From Brevibacillus ruminantium (GTDB lineage Bacteria; Bacillota; Bacilli; Brevibacillales; Brevibacillaceae), in contig NZ_CP098755.1 in assembly GCF_023746555.1 (NCBI RefSeq), positions 4,844,001 through 4,908,000 of the forward strand: 64,000 bases of DNA, read 5' to 3'. Position numbers and translations under genes: made by a program. Below are positions 27,505 through 41,900 of this stretch, in pieces. How positions within the stretch are numbered: the stretch's first letter is position 1; each line of letters begins with the position of its first letter. The notes under the pieces were generated by a model, which was not told the origin of the DNA, did no database searches, and saw only the letters and a program-made list of their open reading frames with translations.

Positions 27505-27532
27505 AAGCAAAAAGTGGAGATTATTCTCCACT
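27505..27532 (-). terminator. Terminator overlapping the end of the primase-helicase gene
   Basis: AGTGGAG and CTCCACT arms; the stop codon sits in the loop and TTTTTGCTTTTT follows on the minus strand. Confidence 0.75.
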
Positions 27533-30292
27533 CGCTTTCAAGTGATCTTGAATTGCAATGCTTTTCTTTAGTTTGTCCAGTTGTTGTTTATTGAAGAATA
27601 CGAACTCTGCTCCTTGGATTGGCAAATTACTTAATACCAGTACGGTTGCCTCTGTGCGAAGAATACGGGCTCTACCTACTGCCTGTAGCAATTCTGATTC
27701 GATTAGATAGAACTGGATTTCCTTCAATAAGTCTTTGTTTGAGTATGTTTGATAGTAGAACTTAAATCCGTTCCGAATCACAGGTTGGTACTCCATCTTA
27801 CTATCATCAAATCCTAATTTTTGACCTAACGCAGCCGAAAAAAGCAGGTATGTAAGTGGGTGTACATTTGGAGTCCCCAGAATGGTTATGTTCTGTCCTT
27901 TCAGATAGTCTACACCGGCCGTTGCTCCGAAAGTTGGTGTTTGTTCTAATGTCTTCATCATGTTTTTGTATGTAATAACTTGGCTATTTGGATTGTATGT
28001 GTTGATTAAATTCTCTGCTAAGTTCAGCATTTCTTCTTTGTTTTCTTTGATTGAATAACGGCTAAAGGATTTACTTGGAATTTGAATGATTTTTCCCTTC
28101 GTTTCGACAAGTCCTAAGTCGTAGAATTTAATCTGCTGTCCGAAAACAATTTTAGATATCCGTTCGTTGATGGTGGCACTCATAATAATCACTTTTTTCG
28201 CAGGGAGTTGTTTTCGACTAATGAAGTTAATGAACTCAATCTCTCCATATGCTTTCACTTTTACATAATAAGTGCAGTTCAGAAAACCGAGGATGTTTGT
28301 ATTCACATCGTCGCTCTTTACAACTTCCTGCTCCATCTCTTCTGCAGTAGACAAGAAGAATGATGCTGCTTCTTGAATTAAACCAATTGGGGCATCCATT
28401 ACTTGCTTTTCAAGACTAGACAGCACATCTATATCCATTTGATTTGATTTCGTTTGTTTGAGTTTTGCAATTGCTAAAGTAAAATCTGCAAGGCTCATGC
28501 TGGACTGTGGAAACAGTGTTGGAATAATATCTTCGTCAACAATAAGTATATCATTGTGGTCTTTTGTATAAATGGCTCTTTGATGAGTAGTAAGTATTGT
28601 TGTATTTTTAACTGTCTTAGCACTTTCGATATCTCTTATGTATTTATCAATAACAATCCCTTGATGAGTGAATTCTTTAGCAAGGTCACGAAGATATACA
28701 TTTGCTGTCTTAAATGCCCCCAAAGAATAAAGATGTTCAAGTTTCTGTCTGACCTCCGTGGTTAAATTATCCGGGAGTTGAGGAACTGTAAAATGTCTGA
28801 CTCCGCTCTCCTTCATTCGATTGCTTACCTCGTCTTTTAGTGCATGAGTTGGTAATGCGATAGTTGCTTTGTGTTGTTTGCAGGCTTGAACATACAGTTC
28901 CGTTTTACCGATACCGGTTGGAGCCTTAATAACATAAATTCCTTCCTCTTCATTTTCAATTATCTGTGTAAAGATATGCTCCAACTCTTTTTCTGCTTGA
29001 GGAAGTGACTTTAAATGTTCTTCTTCTAAAACCTGAACTCTGCCACGAACTAGTTTTCCTTGATCTATTACATTGCGAGCATGTTGGCAAGAATCAGCGA
29101 ACGGGCAGAACGAATCGCAACGACTTGGAGCATAATTGCACTTTGAAATCTGATTAGCCATGACATTCCAAGAATCAATTTTTCGAGCGTATTCCTTACG
29201 GCTATTTAGTATTTGCTGAACTTTTTCCTTCCCGCCTTTAATGTGCAGTAGGTTAGTCATGAGTCCGAACATTTCTTCGTGATACAACCAATAGTCGCCG
29301 CTTAGGGCTTCTCTAAATAGTTGGCAGTTATCTTCTAGTTCATCGAAATTAAAGTTGCGAATGAGAGTAAACTCTTCTTTCGTCTTTTCGATATTAAACT
29401 TAGTATCTTTGCTGCTGTCAGTTTTTAAATAATGTTCTTGCGCGTTATCTTTGCTGAAATACAGTATGTAATTTTGACTAAAAATCGGGCAAATCCTATT
29501 ATATATTATAGGATTTGTCCAGTTTTTAGTCAGTTTCACATGTACATTAGCCCCTACAATCCCTGCTATTTCTGACTCATTCTCAAAAGTTTGTATCTTT
29601 GGATACCCATTCACCATATCTATCCCCACAAAACGGCAATACTTTTCCATATCCCTAGTCGGATTACTTCCAGTACGAATATAGGCACAAACCGAGGTTA
29701 ACAGTCCGGGGACAGTAATTATGTTATCGTAGTTTTCATAAGCGATTTCTTTCCCGCCAAACAGCAATCGAGCCGCATCTTTTGTTGCACGATCCGTTTC
29801 TGGAAAAACAAACATTAACGATTTCTGAACTAAATCCCTTACTCGAATGTCTGTAACCTCTTCATCAAGTAAAAAGATTACACGGAACTTTTCATGCTCT
29901 TTTGTACTTCTGAACGAAGTGTAGATAATTATTGGCATAAGATTAAAGTCATTGCATCGTTCAAGCACTTGTTGAATACTAATGTCTTCATCAATATCTA
30001 GTGCGAAAATCTGCTGACTTACCCAAGTCGCATTAGTTCTTTCTCCACTTTTAAAAATCGATGGAGAAAAAGAACGGGCATTTGGACAAACCACTTCTTT
30101 TGCAAAATCCTGAATTGAAATTTGGCTAGCAGAAATACCAAGTCTTGATGATATTCCTGCTATCTCCTGTTTCTCTGGTTTCCGATTAAATCCTACTTTA
30201 TCAAGACTTACATTTACTTTTAACTGGCGAAAATCGCCTCCTTTACTCGTCATTTTCATCGCCTCCTCTGCTGACGGAGGGATGTACTTCAT
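27521..30292 (-). CDS. Primase-helicase fusion (putative replication protein)
   Basis: A 923-residue protein. The first 200 residues look like an archaeo-eukaryotic primase/PrimPol domain: FALDIDED supplies acidic metal ligands, then FRVIFLLDEEV and AARLLFGGKE. A Cys knot (CNYAPSRCDSFCPFADSC, about 390-410) follows. From about residue 445 it is a superfamily 2 helicase: KAPTGIGKTELY (Walker A), LIVDEDII (Walker B), IIMSATI (motif III) and LLQAVGRARIL (motif VI). Such fusions initiate replication of plasmids and phage-like elements. It is the only replication initiator candidate in the island. Confidence 0.75.
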   Translation of the reverse strand: MKYIPPSAEEAMKMTSKGGDFRQLKVNVSLDKVGFNRKPEKQEIAGISSRLGISASQISIQDFAKEVVCPNARSFSPSIFKSGERTNATWVSQQIFALDIDEDISIQQVLERCNDFNLMPIIIYTSFRSTKEHEKFRVIFLLDEEVTDIRVRDLVQKSLMFVFPETDRATKDAARLLFGGKEIAYENYDNIITVPGLLTSVCAYIRTGSNPTRDMEKYCRFVGIDMVNGYPKIQTFENESEIAGIVGANVHVKLTKNWTNPIIYNRICPIFSQNYILYFSKDNAQEHYLKTDSSKDTKFNIEKTKEEFTLIRNFNFDELEDNCQLFREALSGDYWLYHEEMFGLMTNLLHIKGGKEKVQQILNSRKEYARKIDSWNVMANQISKCNYAPSRCDSFCPFADSCQHARNVIDQGKLVRGRVQVLEEEHLKSLPQAEKELEHIFTQIIENEEEGIYVIKAPTGIGKTELYVQACKQHKATIALPTHALKDEVSNRMKESGVRHFTVPQLPDNLTTEVRQKLEHLYSLGAFKTANVYLRDLAKEFTHQGIVIDKYIRDIESAKTVKNTTILTTHQRAIYTKDHNDILIVDEDIIPTLFPQSSMSLADFTLAIAKLKQTKSNQMDIDVLSSLEKQVMDAPIGLIQEAASFFLSTAEEMEQEVVKSDDVNTNILGFLNCTYYVKVKAYGEIEFINFISRKQLPAKKVIIMSATINERISKIVFGQQIKFYDLGLVETKGKIIQIPSKSFSRYSIKENKEEMLNLAENLINTYNPNSQVITYKNMMKTLEQTPTFGATAGVDYLKGQNITILGTPNVHPLTYLLFSAALGQKLGFDDSKMEYQPVIRNGFKFYYQTYSNKDLLKEIQFYLIESELLQAVGRARILRTEATVLVLSNLPIQGAEFVFFNKQQLDKLKKSIAIQDHLKASGE

Positions 30293-32173: not shown

Positions 32174-33022
32174 ATGAGAGTTGTAGCATTTATTAACGAA
32201 AAAGCAGATATACATAACCAAAATTCCATCAATAACATTAATGCCGAAGTTAGCAGCCATATTCAAAATAAAAACTGGGACTTGGTTACTATCTATAATC
32301 AAGATAGTTTGTTTTTTAATCACATTGATAAGATGGATAATTACGATATGATTGTTTTCTATTGTCACGAGGACTTAATTTATCTAAAAGAAAGTAAGGT
32401 AAAAAAACTTATAAATGTTGTAGATAGTGAAGAGAAAAAGAAGCGTTTATATTTCGTTTCTAATCAAGCAGAAATAAACTTTTCCGAAATCATTTGGGAT
32501 AGATTTATTAATGCACTTAAATTATTTCATTCAGACAAAGAAAACAATCAAGAAGTATTTAACAATATGATAGAAGCATTGTCCGATGCTGCTATTCATC
32601 CTGATTTGACTGAGGCAGTTTATAACAATCGCTTTTCAAACAACATGTTCGATTCAAATACTAAAAGATGGGTGTATTCAAAAGCAATTTTCTATGTTAA
32701 TACACGTAAGGACTCTTTAGAAGTAATGAAGCAAAAATACTCAAGTATTCTCGATATTTGCTATCATAATAATTATGATTACTCAATATTTCGAGACTAT
32801 AACGATTTTATGCAAGCATTAGAGTTACATAATTATAAACGTGCATATATCTACGACTTCAGTGGATTAAACGAAAATATGTTTAAAAACATAGTAACAA
32901 AGTCGTATGAAAGTGGTGCTTATGTTACTGTATTGGAATCAAACGAATTTTTCCATGAGCCAATTGAAGAAGTGATGCTTAAAGTAGCGGAAGTTTTTCA
33001 AGTTAAACAAGATAAATCGTAA
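32174..33022 (+). CDS. Resolvase-like protein without catalytic serine
   Basis: A 282-residue protein that seems to hold two resolvase N-terminal-like units. The N-terminal one reads MRVVAFINEKADIHNQ; the second, from about residue 165, reads AIFYVNTRKDSLEVMKQKYS and CYHNNYDYSIFRDY. True serine recombinases have Y-x-R-V-S-T at this point, so the nucleophile and its Arg partner are missing. It may bind DNA or a recombinase without cutting. The similarity is by eye and not certain. Confidence 0.5.
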   Translation: MRVVAFINEKADIHNQNSINNINAEVSSHIQNKNWDLVTIYNQDSLFFNHIDKMDNYDMIVFYCHEDLIYLKESKVKKLINVVDSEEKKKRLYFVSNQAEINFSEIIWDRFINALKLFHSDKENNQEVFNNMIEALSDAAIHPDLTEAVYNNRFSNNMFDSNTKRWVYSKAIFYVNTRKDSLEVMKQKYSSILDICYHNNYDYSIFRDYNDFMQALELHNYKRAYIYDFSGLNENMFKNIVTKSYESGAYVTVLESNEFFHEPIEEVMLKVAEVFQVKQDKS

Positions 33023-33035
33023 TATTCTCTCCTAC

Positions 33036-33067
33036 TCATGTTTTTAAGCATGAGTATTTTTCTTTTA
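33036..33067 (+). terminator. Terminator after the 282-residue gene
   Basis: ACTCATG and CATGAGT with an eight-base loop, then ATTTTTCTTTT. Confidence 0.75.
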
Positions 33068-33137
33068 CAAGGCTATTTTTGTCCCAATCAGTCGTGAGAA
33101 TATATATAAATAAAAGTAAATGACTAGGAGTGGTCGT

Positions 33138-33563
33138 ATGAATGTCGTGTCTTACATTAATCAATCGGACGAAGCACTATTCAATGAGCAGTTAGAATCA
33201 GTCAAAGAGTATTGCAACGAACAGAACTGGCGACATGTGATGAACTTCGACACTCTTGAGTTATTGACGAAGTACATGCAATACACTCACATTGTGCTTG
33301 TTAACAACGAAACTGAACTGATTGAAAGTCCATTTAAGCGGCTTGTTGAATTAGTCCAGTGGGCTGCCAAGCACGATGTGGCCTTGATTATCAAGGAAGG
33401 ACAGATTGAAATAAATACACACACTCTATCTGAAGACAGCCTGTTCCTGTCTTTCCCAACGGCTTTTGAGAAGATGGTAGCCGAACGAACAAGAACACAT
33501 GAGGAACTTAAAATGCTAAAGACAGAAATCCTAAAAAGCATAATCTCTCGACATTGCATATAA
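33138..33563 (+). CDS. Short resolvase-like protein without catalytic serine
   Basis: About 141 residues from the ATG following AGGAGTGG. N-terminus MNVVSYINQSDEALFNEQLE and VKEYCNEQNWRHVMNFD have the look of a serine-recombinase catalytic domain, but the active-site R-V-S is replaced (YINQSD). Related in layout to the preceding gene. Ends with a helix (ARTRTHEELKMLKTE-like) similar to the linker helix E of recombinases. Function unknown. Confidence 0.5.
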   Translation: MNVVSYINQSDEALFNEQLESVKEYCNEQNWRHVMNFDTLELLTKYMQYTHIVLVNNETELIESPFKRLVELVQWAAKHDVALIIKEGQIEINTHTLSEDSLFLSFPTAFEKMVAERTRTHEELKMLKTEILKSIISRHCI

Positions 33564-33612: not shown

Positions 33613-34776
33613 CTAAGCGTATTTCTCCATCAACTGACCGATAAAAGTACTTACGTCAACTAAGTCGGCTCTGTATTCTGTTGGATACATATTATGATAC
33701 GGCTTTGGTACAACTAGAACGACATTTTCTTCTTTCATTTCCTGCAGTTGATTCTTAGTTATTCCCTGTTGCAAGGTCAGGAGATGCTTCACAGGAATCT
33801 TATTAGCCTCATTAAGGATCTGCCGCCAACGGTCCTTACAGGTTGTTTTTGCTCCCAAAAATGTCAGCAGCGATGAATTTGCATCATCCCGCGCATAATA
33901 TTTGTTCGACGGAAATAGAAAATCTGGCTTCTTGTTTCCTTCCGTTTTACCGGGATGGTCAAATGGTAAATCAAATTCTCTAAAGATAAAATCAGCATGA
34001 TGTTCTAGCGATTTACCAGCCCTACTCTTACGACGATTTAGAATAGAGTTTGCAATATCAATAAACTTTTCTACATCACCGATGGCAGTTTCTATATATG
34101 GCTTATATATTGCTTGTTCCAATGCTTTAAATAACGAATACTCAATATCAATCCAATGTAGTAGTGCTAAGTCTGGGCTCCACTCTTTCTTATTCAACTT
34201 AAAATAAAACTCTCTCGCTTTTAGGGCTAATTCAATTGTAGCAGGGAAATCATCTTCATCCGAAAAATCATTTGCATAGCCCTTTATCAATTTGTCGAGT
34301 TTGTTTGGTTTATCATCTTTTTCTAGGCCGTAGACAGCACTTGTATGAACGATAGAAAGGCTAAAGAAATTGATAAACTCTTCAATATCGTCATCCGTTG
34401 ACAATATAAATCCATAAAATTCATGTTTATCTGCTTCAACAAGAATTAGTAAGTCGCCACAATGCTCTGCCTTGTTGTATGGAGACTCCTTCCAAAAACG
34501 TGTAATCCGATATTCTCGTCTTGTTCCTGTCCCGTACCAAATTCCCCTGCTTTCAACTGGTGGAATTCCATCTTCCCAATGGATTCGAATCCATGATTCC
34601 TTGTTTTCACCTTTCTGCCCCGGCTCGTCAAATAAAAATGGCCAAGCCTCAACACTAACAAGGACACCCTCCTGATGCGCTTTTGTTAAGCCAGTATCGT
34701 TAGCACTTAAGAATTTACAAAAGAAACGGCCATATTTCCTAGCCGTTTCTATAGCATTGTCTAAATTACTTTGCAT
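33613..34776 (-). CDS. EcoRII-like type II restriction endonuclease
   Basis: A 387-residue protein, close to the 404 residues of EcoRII. The N-terminal effector-like domain shows [19 protein letters not shown]. The C-terminal catalytic domain has KKPDFLFPS and [18 protein letters not shown], then [10 protein letters not shown] and [10 protein letters not shown], the recognised EcoRII-C pattern (a PD-(D/E)xK fold). The known family cuts at CCWGG and needs two sites; that specificity is inferred. Its start overlaps the methylase end by 16 bases, coupling the pair. Confidence 0.85.
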
Positions 34777-35744
34777 ACAGTATCTTGCCCTTCTATTTCG
34801 ATTCTTCTGTTTGCATCCAATGCCTCAATCATTTTTTCGGCAATTGCAGAGACAACTGGAACAGCGACAGAATTTCCAAATTGTTTGTATGCAGCAGTAT
34901 TCGACACAACAATTTTAAATCCTTCAGGGAAGCCCTGAAGTCTTGCGCATTCTCTTGGAGTTAATCGTCGTGGATTCTTTCCTTCCTGTGGGATTAGTAT
35001 TTCTGAGCCATCTTTATGATAGCGTGCGCTTAGTGTACGAGAGTGTCCGTCTAGATTTGCCAACCCAAAACCAAATCCGTTCCCTTTTTGACGATGTTTT
35101 TCTGCATATGCTTGCAGATACTCCCACAATTTATCAGACAATGTGTATTTATCATCTACATCTTCTTCCAAAATAGACCTTAAAGGTGGTCCTTGCTCTG
35201 GCAGTTTGGGAAACTCAAATTTAATTGGATCTCTGAAGCCAACAATATAAATTCGTTCTCTATGTTGAGGTACCAGACCTTTAGCATCTAGAACTTCATC
35301 GTAAACAGTATAGCCAAGATCTTCTTTCAATACTTTCATGATTGTTTGATAAGTCCTCTTCTTATCATGACTCCGTAGGTTTTTAACATTTTCGAGCAAA
35401 AATGCTCTTGGTCTTTTTGCATGTAAGATATTTGCAATGTTAAAAAATAGTGTTCCTTGGGTTTCGTCAGCAAAACCATGTGCTCTTCCTAGAGAAGCCT
35501 TTTTAGAAACCCCTGCGAGACTGAATGGCTGACAAGGGAAACCTGCCAATAGAATATCATGGTCTGGAATATCTTCTGGTTCAATAGTTCGAATATCTCC
35601 ATGTGGTTTTTCCCCGAAATTCGCTTCATATGTTTCTTGTGCTTTAACATCCCATTCAGAAGTAAATACACAAACGCCTCCCTGCCGTTCGAAGGCCATT
35701 CTAATACCACCGACACCTGCGAATAAATCTATAAAAGCAAACAT
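34761..35744 (-). CDS. DNA (cytosine-5) methyltransferase
   Basis: A 327-residue C5 methylase with all main motifs: [10 protein letters not shown] (I), AGFPCQPFS with Cys71 (IV), LLENVKNL (VI), [10 protein letters not shown] (VIII), [10 protein letters not shown] (IX) and FGNSVAVPV (X). It transfers a methyl group from S-adenosylmethionine to cytosine, protecting host DNA from the partner nuclease, with CCWGG as the likely target by association. The methylase precedes the nuclease, the safe order for establishment in a new host. Confidence 0.92.
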
Positions 35745-36085: not shown

Positions 36086-36826
36086 TTGGCGATGAGGATA
36101 AGCGATATCACTAATACCTTTGACTCAAAGGAAAGTATACTAATCGACTCTTTTGAAAGTTATCTAAGTCAAAGGTCATCAAAAAGGTATCCAGTAATAA
36201 TTCGTGAAATGGACTGTTGGCAAGGTAGGGCTGATGTGGTGGCTGCTTATTTTAATGATGGGTGGACATTACCTGTAGGTGCCGAAAATATCATGAGTCG
36301 ACTAGGTCCCGCTCAGTTGCTAGCAGTATTGTATCCCAAACGGAAACAAAAATATCCTGATATTGTCTCATTATCAGGATTATCTGAGTCAACAGTACGT
36401 CGAGTCTTGAAGGAACTACTTGAAATAGGACTAATACAAAAATATGAATCAGAGTCATATACATTGCATCCATCAGTTGTGTTACCTAACGTAACATTTC
36501 ATGCTTATGAGGGAAAACTACACAATTGGAAAAGAGCATTATATCAGGCTATTAACTATTTAGGGTTTGCGCAATATTCCTCCATTGTAATGCCTGAACG
36601 ATATGTCAAAGCAGCATTAGATAATATAGAGCATTTTAAAATAAACGGGATTGGGATTATTTCAGTAACCAATCAGAAATATAAAGTTTACCTGAAGCCA
36701 AGGAAAAACCGACCAAGGAAAAGGGCTTTTCACTTAGTCGGCATCGGAAAAACAATTGCAACTATGAATCAATCAGACATTTGCAGCCCCTCTGAAAAGA
36801 CGAATAGCGGAGAGCCAAGTATTTAA
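36086..36826 (+). CDS. Winged-helix protein with possible nuclease-like N-terminus
   Basis: A 246-residue protein. Residues about 40-60 read VIIREMDCWQGRADVVAAYF, reminiscent of the E...G-x-A-D core of restriction-like folds, though no complete PD-(D/E)xK set is visible. Residues about 95-125 form a winged helix (LSGLSESTVRRVLKELLEIG). The C-terminus is basic (KPRKNRPRKR). It converges on, and overlaps by 54 bases, the leftward unknown gene that follows the kinase. It could be a sensor or regulator of that cluster. Confidence 0.6.
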   Translation: MAMRISDITNTFDSKESILIDSFESYLSQRSSKRYPVIIREMDCWQGRADVVAAYFNDGWTLPVGAENIMSRLGPAQLLAVLYPKRKQKYPDIVSLSGLSESTVRRVLKELLEIGLIQKYESESYTLHPSVVLPNVTFHAYEGKLHNWKRALYQAINYLGFAQYSSIVMPERYVKAALDNIEHFKINGIGIISVTNQKYKVYLKPRKNRPRKRAFHLVGIGKTIATMNQSDICSPSEKTNSGEPSI

Positions 36827-37981
36827 ATGCGATTTCGAAGATGCCCTTTCTAATTGGACTGCGTACCTCTCCAAAAGTGTGTACAATGAACTTGCATGTG
36901 AGATGGCCTTCTCCATATTATTCAGGCGTGTAGTAATATCTTTTGTACTTTGGAAAATATCATTAGATGCTTTCTTTATAGCAGACCAATGTTGCTGATG
37001 TGATAACGCTCTACTCCAAGCATCCGATGGGTTTGACCCCGCAAGAATGATTCTATCCTCACTAGTGTTAGAAAGCGTATCTCGGAAAATACTTTGTGGA
37101 GCGTTTGCAGCAATGGAATCCAACTCAGAGACCAGTATTGAGTTAAGTAGCGGGACTGATGTATATCGCTCCCTTGGTAGCCTCCCACCCGTCGAAGGCA
37201 AAATCCTCTGCTGAATAGTGAACTTCCTCGAACTATTGTGCCAACCGGTTCCGATCCCGTATGCGCCTACGCATAAGTAGAGCAACCCAATAATGTCAGC
37301 ATATCCCACAATTACTTTAAATTCGTTTATCTCTGATAGGGAATAAATGAAATAAAGCAAATTAGAAAGCGCAAGATCTGAGTCAAAGTCCTGATTATAG
37401 TCTTTATTATTTCTCGCTACTGTTAGATAAAAACCCTCCATGTCGAAAACAGAAATTTCGTTTAAAAATTCATTAACCCGATCCGTTTCGTTAAGGGCAG
37501 ATTCAGTAAATATGAGTGATGTCAGTAGTGGCTGAGTATAACCCTTGGAAATCATTACATTATTGGACTCTTCCGCTAAACTCAAACAAATCTGGGTCTG
37601 TCTATCACTAAAACTATTTATTAAAAGCGTAGGAGATAAAATATAATGCGCTCCTAAAGACATCTGGAAATCAATTGTATCCTCTGCGTATTTTTGGATA
37701 TCCCGAATGGACCGAAATGACGGCATTGTCAGATGACCCGGATAATACGCATAATTGGGTAAATTTTTAGTAGTTCCGTCTATATAAGTTGTGTAATAAA
37801 ACTGAGGGTCCAATAAAACCTCGGATTTCGAGTAATCATCAAATAGTTCTTTTCTAAATGTTCTTAGGTTATCTTCAGTATCATCCCGTGGACTTAATAT
37901 CACTCCATCAGCCGCACCATTAGAAAGCGCTTGGTGTATTTTTGTTCCCTTTCCATATCCCTGCTGTACAAATAACTTCAC
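36773..37981 (-). CDS. Unknown 402-residue protein linked to a kinase
   Basis: Not recognised with certainty. The start KLFVQQGYGKGTKIHQAL... GAADGVILSPRD and the middle block VGYADIIGLLYLCVGAYGIG, GTGWHN suggest a TIM-barrel protein, perhaps distantly like tRNA-guanine transglycosylase relatives. The last 100 residues are helical. Its first codon overlaps the stop of the kinase gene, so the two are translationally coupled and probably act together. Its tail overlaps the convergent winged-helix gene. Confidence 0.6.
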   Translation of the reverse strand: MKLFVQQGYGKGTKIHQALSNGAADGVILSPRDDTEDNLRTFRKELFDDYSKSEVLLDPQFYYTTYIDGTTKNLPNYAYYPGHLTMPSFRSIRDIQKYAEDTIDFQMSLGAHYILSPTLLINSFSDRQTQICLSLAEESNNVMISKGYTQPLLTSLIFTESALNETDRVNEFLNEISVFDMEGFYLTVARNNKDYNQDFDSDLALSNLLYFIYSLSEINEFKVIVGYADIIGLLYLCVGAYGIGTGWHNSSRKFTIQQRILPSTGGRLPRERYTSVPLLNSILVSELDSIAANAPQSIFRDTLSNTSEDRIILAGSNPSDAWSRALSHQQHWSAIKKASNDIFQSTKDITTRLNNMEKAISHASSLYTLLERYAVQLERASSKSHLNTWLSAIRLFRGAANV

Positions 37982-38919
37982 TAGATTTCCTCCCTTGCTT
38001 GCAATAGTTTATCTATAAGGGATTCACAACTTTTATACCTTAAATGAGGCTCTTTTGCTAAAAGTCGCATTATTACTGTGTTTAGACTATTCGGTAAATC
38101 AGTGCGAAATTTATTAGGTGGCTCAACTTGGTTCGAAACAATATTCGCAACTAACTGCATAGAATTAATTCCCCTTGTAAAGAACGGGTGATTACCGGTT
38201 AACGATTCATAAAGAACTATACCTAATAAGAAAAGATCGGAACGAAAATCGATTCCTCTCCTCACATTCTTTAACTGTTCTGGTGACATATAGATTGGTG
38301 TCCCTACCGTCATGAACGCTGCTGTAAGCGATTCATCAGTTAGATCGAATGCTAAGCCGGTATCGAGCAACACATAACTCCCATTATCACGCCTCATGAT
38401 ATTTTTAGGTTTTACATCTCGATGTACCATTTTAATCTCCCATAAATGCTTAACGGCGGTTGCGATATCAATCCCTAATTGAATTCCTTCTTGAAGTGAT
38501 ATCTGCTTGTCCCGTCTGATTATGGTATGGAGATCATCACCATTTATAAGTTCTTCAGTAAAGTAAAGAAGTTTTTTATTATTGTAATCAACGAATGTCA
38601 TTCCAATTGGACCCAATTTAACTAAAGTCGGTGTTTCACAACGATCCATAATATCGATTTCCCGTTTCGCCCTTGCCAACACATCTTCCCTAATATCCTC
38701 CATAGGAGACACAGTAATCTGTGAGTTCAAACTTAACAAATCTTGTGGGGCTTGTTGATTTTGAATATTTGTTAGATCTAGAAACTTTATTGCAAATTTG
38801 TCTTCATTAATCAGGCAGGAAAAAACGGTTTTTTGCCCACCTTTTCCCACAAACTCAATTTCATTACATTCAGGACAAATCTCTTTCACTTCGTCTACTG
38901 TTAAGTCTGGTGCTCGCAA
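37981..38919 (-). CDS. Ser/Thr protein kinase, eukaryotic-like
   Basis: A 312-residue kinase without membrane helix. Gly-rich loop GKGGQKTVF (25-33), Lys45, Glu87, catalytic loop HRDVKPKN (166-173) and an SPE at 212-214 are all present, so activity is expected. The metal-binding DFG is DTG (186-188), a variation that keeps the Asp. A CPEC pair at 15-18 may bind metal. It heads a two-gene operon; standing beside a restriction-modification pair in a mobile island, a defence role is a fair guess. Confidence 0.85.
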   Translation of the reverse strand: MRAPDLTVDEVKEICPECNEIEFVGKGGQKTVFSCLINEDKFAIKFLDLTNIQNQQAPQDLLSLNSQITVSPMEDIREDVLARAKREIDIMDRCETPTLVKLGPIGMTFVDYNNKKLLYFTEELINGDDLHTIIRRDKQISLQEGIQLGIDIATAVKHLWEIKMVHRDVKPKNIMRRDNGSYVLLDTGLAFDLTDESLTAAFMTVGTPIYMSPEQLKNVRRGIDFRSDLFLLGIVLYESLTGNHPFFTRGINSMQLVANIVSNQVEPPNKFRTDLPNSLNTVIMRLLAKEPHLRYKSCESLIDKLLQAREEI

Positions 38920-39158: not shown

Positions 39159-39716
39159 TTGTATCAAATTATGAGCTGGATGAGAAGATCCCCGGCGTTT
39201 TTTGTTAGGTGTGCAGAAATTGTCCCTAGCCCTTGCTGCATTGCGAGTTTAACGGTAATCGGTAGCCGAGGCCGGAAGATTGTTCATGCTACAGGGGAAA
39301 AGAGCGAGTTGGTTATTCGAAGATTGCGTTGTACGGCTTGTCGGAAGATTCATCATGAGTTACCGGATTGCATTGTACCTTACAAGCGTTACGAGTCGGA
39401 ATGTGTGGAAAATGTCATCACGTCTGAACCGTCAGAAGTAGATGTTGCCGCAGACAACTCCACGTTGTACCGTTGGCGGGCTTGGTTTTGCTCCATGGCC
39501 ACCTACTTGCTAGGGTGCTTAGAGTCTATCGCCATTCGCTTTCATCTAGATGTTGTGGAGGAATCGTCCACTCCTTCACAAGCTGCACACCATAGATTCG
39601 GACGTTATGTCGGTGATGCTGACGGATGGCTAGCTAGAGTTGTCCGGCCTGTTGCAAATTCAAACTTTTGGGTTACATACCCGTTCTGCATTCTTGTCCA
39701 AGGCCCTCTGAGATAG
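39159..39716 (+). CDS. DUF6431 transposon protein, probably frameshifted at its start
   Basis: Reads as the DUF6431 family of transposon accessory proteins, with PSPCC, TVIGSRGRK, IRRLRCTACRKIHHELPD and PYKRY; the Cys pairs likely bind zinc. The natural start seems to be the ATG at 39152 (MIIVSNYELDEKIPGV), which is in another frame; the two join at a T6 run near 39206. That is either a programmed -1 shift or a mutation. Function in transposition is unknown. Confidence 0.7.
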   Translation: MYQIMSWMRRSPAFFVRCAEIVPSPCCIASLTVIGSRGRKIVHATGEKSELVIRRLRCTACRKIHHELPDCIVPYKRYESECVENVITSEPSEVDVAADNSTLYRWRAWFCSMATYLLGCLESIAIRFHLDVVEESSTPSQAAHHRFGRYVGDADGWLARVVRPVANSNFWVTYPFCILVQGPLR

Positions 39717-39754
39717 ACTCGTAAACGAATCTATCAGAGGAAAGGTGTAATGGG

Positions 39755-41107
39755 ATGAAAGATCAAAAGAAAGCAGAGCAAATCGCAGCAGACCGTGTGC
39801 AGCTCCTTGCCCCGTTGCTTACGGAAGGGCTCGATCCGGCAAAGGCGAGGGAAATCAAGCAAAGAATTTGCGAGCAAATCGGAATATCGGAGAGAACGCT
39901 GCGGCGGTATCTAGCAGCCTACCGGCAAGATGGCTTTGGCGGATTAAAGCCGAAGAGCAAAGGGAAGCAACCCGCAGCCCCCGCCATTCCGTCGGAGGTC
40001 TTGGAGCAAGCAATCTTGCTGCGGCGAGAGGTACCAAGTCGTAGTGTCACCCAGATCATTCAGATCCTGGAATGGGAAGGCCGCGTTAAGCCAGGTCAAA
40101 TCAAACGGAGCACGCTTCAAGAGAAGCTAACGGAACGTGGTTACAGCACAAGACATATGCGAATGTATGCAAACTCTGGTGTAGCGGCTCGCAGGTTCCA
40201 ACAGCCACACCGCAATCGTCTATGGCACTCGGACTTAAAGTATGGTCCGTACCTGCCCATTGGACCGGATGGAGCGATGAAACAAGTGTTTCTCGTCACC
40301 TTCATCGACGATGCGACGAGATTCGTGCTGCATGGCGAATTTTACCCGGTCATGGATAAGACGATCGTCGAAGACTGTTTCCGAAAGGCCATTCAGAAAT
40401 ACGGTGTTCCGGAGGCGGTGTACTTCGACAATGGGAAGCAGTACCGTACCAAATGGATGACACGGACGTGTTCCAAATTGGGTGTGCGACTTCTTTTTGC
40501 GAAACCGTACTCGCCAGAATCGACCGGTAAGGTTGAGCGATTCAACCGGGTGGTAGATTCTTTCCTTAGCGAAGCAGCACTTGAAAAGCCTAAGACGATC
40601 GACCGACTGAATGAGTTGTTCGAGGTCTGGCTCTCGGAATGCTACCAGAACAAGCCGCATTCGGCATTAGAAAACAAACGAAGCCCTGAAATCGCCTTTC
40701 GAAATGACAAGAAGGCGCTTCGGTTTGTGGAACCGGAGGAACTTGCCAATGCATTCCTTCACTGTGAAACCCGCAAAGTCGACAAAACCGGTTGCATTAG
40801 CTTCTTGGATCGAAAATATGAAGTGGGGCTTCCTTTCATCGGATGTACCGTGGATGTCGTGTATGACCCGTCAGACACCACCGAGTTGACGATTGAGTAT
40901 GAAGGCCACGAACCGTGGAAGGTCAAAGAGCTCGTGATCGGTGAACGCGCCGGAAAGCGTCCTCCGTTGCCAGACCATCTTCAGCCTGTTCCAGTAGAAT
41001 CGTCAAGGCTGCTAAGTGCTGCCGAAGTACAGAGTCATCACCGCCGTTCCGTGCAAGCTCCGGCCGTTAGTTACCGTAGGAAAGGTAAGGTGAATGGCGA
41101 TGTTTGA
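39755..41107 (+). CDS. DDE transposase (rve core, TniA-like)
   Basis: A 450-residue transposase. N-terminal helix-turn-helix (about 25-70; ISERTLRRYLAAYRQDG) and a second DNA-binding part are followed by the RNase H-like core: first Asp in HSDLKYGPY, second in YFDNGKQY, and Glu in ESTGKVERFNR. A Mu-C-like barrel closes the protein (CISFLDRKYEVG). It performs strand transfer together with the ATPase, whose start overlaps its stop by 14 bases. Confidence 0.92.
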   Translation: MKDQKKAEQIAADRVQLLAPLLTEGLDPAKAREIKQRICEQIGISERTLRRYLAAYRQDGFGGLKPKSKGKQPAAPAIPSEVLEQAILLRREVPSRSVTQIIQILEWEGRVKPGQIKRSTLQEKLTERGYSTRHMRMYANSGVAARRFQQPHRNRLWHSDLKYGPYLPIGPDGAMKQVFLVTFIDDATRFVLHGEFYPVMDKTIVEDCFRKAIQKYGVPEAVYFDNGKQYRTKWMTRTCSKLGVRLLFAKPYSPESTGKVERFNRVVDSFLSEAALEKPKTIDRLNELFEVWLSECYQNKPHSALENKRSPEIAFRNDKKALRFVEPEELANAFLHCETRKVDKTGCISFLDRKYEVGLPFIGCTVDVVYDPSDTTELTIEYEGHEPWKVKELVIGERAGKRPPLPDHLQPVPVESSRLLSAAEVQSHHRRSVQAPAVSYRRKGKVNGDV

Positions 41108-41900
41108 GGCATTCTACGAGCTTAGTCGTTCACCGTTCTCCAGAGATGTCCCGCCTAGCGAGCTGTATGAGTCGGTCATTTTGGAAGAGACGCTGGGACG
41201 GTTAGAATATGCGGCAGAGAGGCAATGGTTTGCTGTCGTTACCGGAGACTGCGGAACGGGGAAGACGACAACGATTCGGCGGTTTGCGGAAGAACTGGAT
41301 CCCGCAAAGTTCAAAGTGCTCTATCTGTCAGATTCAAAGCTGACCCCGCGGCATTTCTACAAGGGACTACTGGAACAACTCGGTTGTGAGTCGAAGTTTT
41401 ATCGCGGGGATGCGAAGCGTCAGTTGCATCGGGAGATTGAGCTCATGCGAGGAATTCATGGATTGCAGCCCGTCGTGGTCGTGGATGAAAGTCATCTTTT
41501 GGATCGTGAGATGCTGGAAGAGGTTCGCTTTCTTCTGAATTTTAAGATGGATGCACAAAGCCCAATGGCTCTTATCCTTGTCGGGCAAAGCGAACTCTGG
41601 GATCGCATTAACCTACAAGCTTACGCTGCAATTCGTCAACGCATCGATCTGCAATGCAAACTTCCGCATTACGACCGGGCCCAAACAGGAGCTTACATCG
41701 AGAGACACATGACCTATGCCGGTGCGGAACGGGACATATTCACCGACGGAGCCATTGATGACATCTATCGCTTTTCTAGTGGAGCAGCTAGGCTAATCAA
41801 CAAAGTATGCACCCATTGTTTAATCTATGGGGCCCAGAACAAACACCGCATCATCGATGATCATATGGTTAAACGCGTCATTCAGGGAGAATTATCATAA
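41094..41900 (+). CDS. AAA ATPase, TniB/ExeA-like transposition regulator
   Basis: 268 residues with Walker A GDCGTGKTTT (about 46-55), Walker B VVVVDESHLL and sensor GQSELW. ExeA/TniB-type ATPases choose targets and activate the transposase. Overlaps the transposase gene and uses ATG behind AGGTGAATGGCG. Confidence 0.88.
   Translation: MAMFEAFYELSRSPFSRDVPPSELYESVILEETLGRLEYAAERQWFAVVTGDCGTGKTTTIRRFAEELDPAKFKVLYLSDSKLTPRHFYKGLLEQLGCESKFYRGDAKRQLHREIELMRGIHGLQPVVVVDESHLLDREMLEEVRFLLNFKMDAQSPMALILVGQSELWDRINLQAYAAIRQRIDLQCKLPHYDRAQTGAYIERHMTYAGAERDIFTDGAIDDIYRFSSGAARLINKVCTHCLIYGAQNKHRIIDDHMVKRVIQGELS

Follow-up and report, generated by a model that had tools for sequence, protein, structure and literature searches.

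The window, by which we mean the whole stretch of 64,000 nucleotides of Brevibacillus ruminantium DNA analysed here, carries three adjoining genes that raise the question of whether they act together, and to what end. They encode a Ser/Thr kinase, a 402-residue protein and, on the opposite strand, a 246-residue protein. A preliminary description had called them a candidate undescribed defence cluster. The survey below supports that proposal, since the homologues co-occur and the 402-residue protein is not an ordinary tRNA-guanine transglycosylase (TGT); judged from sequence comparison, the genes look like an undescribed three-gene anti-phage module. The host genome comprises 5.6 Mb in two contigs, and the locus is laid out as follows.

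33613..35744, minus strand: neighbouring EcoRII-like endonuclease and cytosine-5 methyltransferase (Pfam/PADLOC)
36086..36826, plus strand: NUC, a PD-(D/E)XK-type nuclease of 246 aa, start TTG, with residues E16, E41, D50, E142-x-K144 and Q154
36281..36466, plus strand: winged-helix insert, residues about 66–127, between D50 and E142 of the nuclease core (AF2 model, wHTH matches, absence from some homologues)
36773..36826, unstranded: convergent 54-bp overlap of the NUC and BARREL 3' ends, of equal length in L063 (sequence comparison)
36773..37981, minus strand: BARREL, a predicted TGT-fold TIM barrel and putative pseudo-TGT of 402 aa, start GTG, with D58-P59 invariant
37981..37981, minus strand: 1-nt overlap of kinase stop and barrel start, TAGTG (sequence)
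37981..38919, minus strand: KIN, a Hanks-type Ser/Thr kinase of 312 aa, start TTG (Pfam Pkinase, catalytic residues, GGQK loop, HRDVKPKN, DTG)
39159..41900, plus strand: neighbours on the opposite side, a DUF6431 gene, an rve transposase and a TniB/AAA-type gene (Pfam)

The three reading frames first proposed match the sequence exactly. The barrel GTG shares one base with the kinase stop codon TAG and is preceded by a GGGAGG-type ribosome site, in agreement with the suggested translational coupling, and both Pfam and PADLOC recognise the adjoining EcoRII-like pair that had been named. The 54-base overlap of the convergent genes, also described before, was found again in Paenibacillus oceani (L063), which shares all three genes and their layout. 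Between the two loci dN/dS is 0.07 for the nuclease, 0.04 for the kinase and 0.03 for the barrel, rough values at a dS of 2–3, near saturation; within that roughness, amino-acid changes appear to be under strong purifying selection. The shared arrangement and overlap, together with the low dN/dS, indicate that the grouping in the window is more than chance.

Further off in the window, a 923-aa protein (27521-30292) has weak likeness to a Cas3-type helicase (PADLOC E 2.7e-6) and lies beside small genes of unknown function. Genes of 282 and 147 aa (32174-33563) stand beside the EcoRII pair; the shorter has a resolvase N-terminal match below cut-off, and the two are possibly a decayed recombinase.

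Folds and conserved residues

The kinase matches Pfam Pkinase (E 6.6e-35) and contains the Hanks-type HRDxKPxN, DxG and catalytic Lys, with catalytic residues conserved across homologues. The DTG in place of DFG that had been noted in this eukaryotic-like kinase is real, yet normal in its clade: DTG is present in the kinases of the window, L063, L069 and L074, and DFG, DVG or DLG in the remaining 17 of 21. The usual glycine loop is replaced by GGQK or TGQK in 12 of 17 non-fused kinases and reads SGQK in L029; the four kinases fused to a barrel keep the usual loop. The top PADLOC match is PD-T4-6, and a PknB-type model scores alike.

The 246-residue protein is modelled by AF2 with an alpha-beta-beta-beta-alpha-beta core bearing D...ExK, as in PD-(D/E)XK nucleases. 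Its fold resembles PaqCI and 3dnx, which we take to be a member of that superfamily, and D50, E142 and K144 are invariant in 18 sequences. By Foldseek alone there was no match under E 0.001, and no Pfam, NCBIfam or PADLOC model reached its cut-off or covered the protein; a weak match to NCBIfam sce7726 scored 24.6 bits, where the cut-off is 70. The protein had been described as a winged-helix protein with a nuclease-like stretch. The nuclease-like part stands, with the quoted motif REMDCWQGRADVV present at residue 40; the winged helix, supported by the AF2 model and by wHTH matches, is an insert inside the nuclease core rather than the whole fold. This stretch is missing from the nuclease homologues L009, L029 and L033.

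The 402-residue protein, previously guessed to be a possible TIM barrel, has a TGT-type (beta/alpha)8 fold according to its predicted structure, which places it in the tRNA-guanine transglycosylase superfamily. Both quoted motifs are present, GAADGVILSPRD at residue 22 and GTGWHN at residue 244. We take the nucleophile of Z. mobilis TGT to be D280, at the end of strand 8, and the general acid/base to be D102, after strand 3. With correspondence drawn by strand order rather than by residue-level superposition, D58, followed by P59 in all 28 barrels compared, matches the general acid/base place in 28/28; aligned in the same way, without residue-level superposition, the nucleophile place at the end of strand 8 (residues 243-246 in the window barrel) has no Asp in any of the 28. 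The zinc site CxCxxC...H is absent from the window barrel, and CxCxxC is found in 7 of the 28.

Profile searches gave little. None of 14 barrel members scanned matched PF01702, and across Pfam, PHROGs and NCBIfam the same 14 gave only scattered single-member matches (best E 0.013), one of them to archaeosine synthase alpha (E 0.018). For the window barrel, PADLOC provided no identification, and no Pfam, NCBIfam or PADLOC model reached its cut-off or covered the protein. Comparison with TGT by hhalign yielded non-significant probabilities of 0.1% and 0.7%, with a TGT profile of only four close sequences. PDB sequences gave no match in one search and two chance-level matches in another. The single match under E 0.001 in a viral structure library was to an uncharacterised phage protein; at rank 11 stood a putative queuine tRNA-ribosyltransferase. 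The barrel is thus not an ordinary TGT: it has the TGT fold in its model, but neither a significant profile match nor the nucleophile Asp, and seems to be related to a tRNA-modifying enzyme while having lost the key catalytic residue.

Linkage of the genes and exchange of the kinase

Barrel homologues were found in 3 of 26 genus genomes, 4 of 39 family genomes, 10 of 398 phylum-sample genomes and 8 of 398 class-sample genomes, the own genome being included in each count; further barrels came from plasmids, genome contigs and viral contigs. Gene neighbours were inspected at 28 distinct loci whose barrel is complete or almost so. Left out were a degenerate fragment without partners (G116), a truncated barrel beside kinase and nuclease (G295/L033), a near copy of L071 (L072) and the repeat fetches L070, L073, L065, L066, L007, L008 and L012. 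Among the named hosts are Bacillota, Polaromonas and the haloarchaeon Natribaculum, and one of the barrels lies on an archaeal plasmid.

The gene-neighbourhood survey showed that the homologues do co-occur, in different phyla and in both bacteria and archaea. A nuclease adjoins the barrel in 27 of the 28 loci, although in L030 the contig end leaves only a fragment of it (12.3 bits); the Gordonia plasmid L099 alone has none. A kinase adjoins or is fused to the barrel in 22. In most linked loci the barrel is only 17-25% identical to that of the window. Four arrangements were seen: the operon nuclease-kinase-barrel; the operon kinase-barrel-nuclease (L029, L030); kinase-barrel with a convergent nuclease, as in the window clade; and a kinase-barrel fusion with a convergent nuclease. 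The fusions (L035/L008, L011, L036/L012 and L044) make the link between kinase and barrel a physical one. Distances between kinases and barrels are correlated (Spearman 0.68 over 21 loci), and those of the nuclease less so (0.32 with the kinase, 0.34 with the barrel); none of 2000 permutations was as high in each case. Among far pairs the kinase-barrel correlation holds at 0.56 and the nuclease values fall to 0.07 and 0.09, so that the nuclease tracks the other two only among close pairs.

The linkage was also examined in reverse. At E 0.001 the nuclease profile matches 128 of 398 phylum-sample genomes, 11 of them above 40 bits; the uncounted matches, among those listed, score below 30 bits and lie mostly on the winged-helix part. 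A barrel is present in 10 of the 11. Eight of these were already barrel-positive (truncated in G295), and G250 and G200 have a barrel with SIR2; in the remaining genome, G263, the contig breaks off after kinase and nuclease.

Six of the 28 loci have no kinase. In two of them, L096 and L097, nuclease and barrel are followed immediately by a SIR2-like gene; PF13289 (SIR2_2) matches at 24.9 bits in L096, above the cut-off of 24.5, and at 20.7 in L097, below it. These are the only SIR2 loci found and belong to one family (f21). In the tree their barrels belong to the half in which all seven zinc-motif members are found, their exact place being unsure on account of long branches. A constant nuclease and barrel with a swappable third gene is what a sensing core with interchangeable effectors would look like. 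Upstream of both SIR2-type modules (L096:6470-7111, L097:3289-3906) is a mutually similar gene of 213 or 205 aa, with weak Abi_alpha and Panacea matches in L096 and none in L097.

The other four kinase-less loci differ in setting. L064 begins just downstream of its contig edge, with an apparent transposase fragment; its kinase looks lost, as L064 nests within the window clade beside L069. In L031 the barrel itself begins at the contig edge. At L047 (6876-8841) neither a kinase nor a SIR2 gene accompanies nuclease and barrel; a large serine recombinase, identified by eye, is close by, and the locus may carry an unrecognised effector. On the Gordonia plasmid (L099:4819-7095) the barrel, with no nuclease or kinase nearby, lies beside an annotated Xre/ParS antitoxin and an apparent RES toxin gene, the latter recognised by eye.

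Several loci lie in mobile DNA. In two IMG/VR contigs (L069, L074) the module is flanked by an ImmA-like (Peptidase_M78) gene on one side and an integrase on the other, a prophage position. In L069 there are also genes belonging to phage families of regulators and anti-repressors, and the L074 regulator was identified by eye. An M78 gene follows the nuclease in L064, L068 is near baseplate and tail genes, and L071 is beside a tape-measure-like gene. A PP2C-like phosphatase gene directly adjoins the module in the viral contig L068 (4990-5733), as if to oppose the kinase. Searches with the barrel in phage records, with the SIR2-type barrel in plasmids and with the DNA of the window region in plasmids returned nothing, and viral scans with barrels of the fusion, L029/L030 and Polaromonas types gave no relative. 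Defence-type neighbours, chosen by eye as examples and not as an enrichment estimate, are HmaB/HmaC-like (L026), LmuB-like and PDC-M62-like (L032), type III RM-like (L036) and a type IIG/DrmMI-like methylase (L010). No defence gene was recognised near several loci, L034, L044, L045 and L063 among them.

Candidate functions

From this genomic context and the SIR2 swap we infer a role in phage defence, possibly by abortive infection. The reading we prefer is that of a mobile anti-phage module of three genes, in which nuclease and barrel form a sensing core that triggers an exchangeable effector; we give it an even chance of being correct. The conserved core, perhaps acting as a complex, would detect infection through a nucleic-acid cue; tRNA or a 7-deazaguanine-type base is the likeliest, these being what known TGTs bind. 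The barrel would be a sensor or adaptor and not a base-exchange enzyme, because the fold and an invariant acidic residue are kept and the nucleophile is missing. Once triggered, the core would activate the co-encoded effector, here the Ser/Thr kinase, which would phosphorylate host targets so that growth stops, and in other loci a SIR2-like NADase. The exchangeable third gene and the precedent of kinase toxicity in the kinase-kinase-phosphatase module (KKP) are what suggest the kinase as effector and the barrel as pseudo-enzyme sensor. Counting against this reading are the kinase-less L047 and the isolated barrel of L099, the small number of SIR2 loci, the choice by eye of the defence neighbours, the non-significant profile comparison with TGT and the behaviour of nuclease distances among far pairs. 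The most specific form, in which a retired TGT and a PD-(D/E)XK nuclease sense a tRNA or 7-deazaguanine-type phage cue and, as a novel type of bacterial and archaeal immunity, fire a Hanks-type kinase in the majority of lineages or a SIR2 NADase in the rest, is offered tentatively and is rather doubtful as a whole.

The strongest competitor, unlikely in our estimate, is a toxin-antitoxin or lysogeny-control function on mobile elements. The kinase would be a toxin restrained by the barrel and the nuclease protein, the winged helix would regulate the module's own or prophage promoters, and defence would be a by-product. The prophage position beside ImmA-like genes and an integrase, the winged helix and the PP2C-like gene beside L068 all fit, and KKP is reported to serve both lysogeny control and defence (PMC11341870). 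However, three nucleases lack the winged helix, which is therefore not part of the core, the nuclease residues are invariant, and the kinase is replaceable or missing.

Somewhat less probable still is a restriction-modification-like scheme, in which the TGT-fold protein would put 7-deazaguanine or some other base into DNA or tRNA to mark self, in a Dpd-like manner; nucleic acid without the mark would be cut by the nuclease, and the kinase would regulate both proteins. The TGT fold, D58 in 28/28, the zinc-type CxCxxC in 7/28 and the conserved nuclease residues would suit it, as would the reported function of TGT homologues in Dpd defence (PMC12839542). It is opposed by the absence of Asp at the strand-8 end in 28/28, and no preQ0-pathway, DpdB or DpdC genes were recognised in the loci examined, part of whose neighbours were scanned by profile; an exchange of kinase for SIR2 is also unfit for a modification regulator.

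We consider it improbable that the barrel acts as effector in its own right, as an N-glycosidase that employs D58 to remove or exchange a tRNA or DNA base under control of kinase and nuclease. D58-P59 is invariant in 28 and, by strand order, occupies the TGT general acid/base place, but it is kinase and SIR2 that vary and the barrel that persists, as is usual for effectors and sensors respectively. Three neighbours without a joint function, for which the convergent nuclease of the window might speak, can hardly be reconciled with linkage in 27/28 and 22/28 loci, mostly at 17-25% barrel identity, in four arrangements and with fusions.

Were the sensing-core reading true, a tRNA-modification fold would have been recruited as an immune sensor, with protein phosphorylation and NAD loss as interchangeable outputs of one core. 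It would offer a concrete cue, namely a tRNA state or deazaguanine-modified phages. The results also point to protein families missed by the searched libraries, in bacterial chromosomes, plasmids and prophages and on an archaeal plasmid.

Comparison with known systems

Among known systems, KKP is a prophage module for which kinase toxicity is reported to be the anti-phage mechanism (PMC11341870). Both have a Ser/Thr kinase on prophages; the present module has one kinase and no phosphatase (the PP2C-like gene of L068 adjoins it), plus a nuclease and the TGT-fold barrel. PD-T4-6 and Stk2 are likewise Hanks-type but stand-alone kinases, unlike a kinase that adjoins or is fused to the barrel in 22/28 loci, and the similarity of the module kinase to PD-T4-6 is that of kinases in general. 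CapK/CapS and vapKSC, where kinase control is reported for an immune operon or for a toxin that is a nuclease (PMC13373217), were rejected as relatives: they are GHKL kinases with STAS proteins, another family and not a Hanks kinase with a TGT fold.

The Dpd system with DpdA and the TGT family (PF01702) share the TGT fold and a partner nuclease, whereas the module barrel has no nucleophile Asp or significant profile match and is partnered by a kinase or SIR2. No DpdB, DpdC or preQ0 supply gene was recognised beside the module of the window, part of whose neighbours were scanned by profile. HerA/FtsK BREX-related systems are reported to have a TGT in a defence-type operon with six other components (PMC12839542); the TGT-fold protein is common to both, and those six are absent from the three-gene module.

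In sce7726/sce7725/RES operons (NF033832/NF033831) a nuclease-like protein, a second unknown and a RES-domain protein stand together. L048, L049 and L050 hold an sce7726-like nuclease, sce7725 and a RES-domain-type protein as a conserved three-gene operon; sce7725 occurs in 3 of 149 genomes, and RES is confirmed by Pfam in L048. This operon is a parallel nuclease/unknown/NAD-toxin triad. The idea that the module is a divergent sce7725/sce7726 pair was dropped, since neither barrel nor nuclease was significantly similar by profile, with hhalign probabilities of 0.06% and 0.5% against reference profiles of three sequences only.

Among the matches listed from open-licence literature, a body with few subscription papers and no preprints, no title or abstract describes the triad of the window. 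No named system that could be tested has its defining features reproduced in the module; the kind to which the module belongs, a modular, mobile defence operon with an exchangeable effector, we rate as already known.
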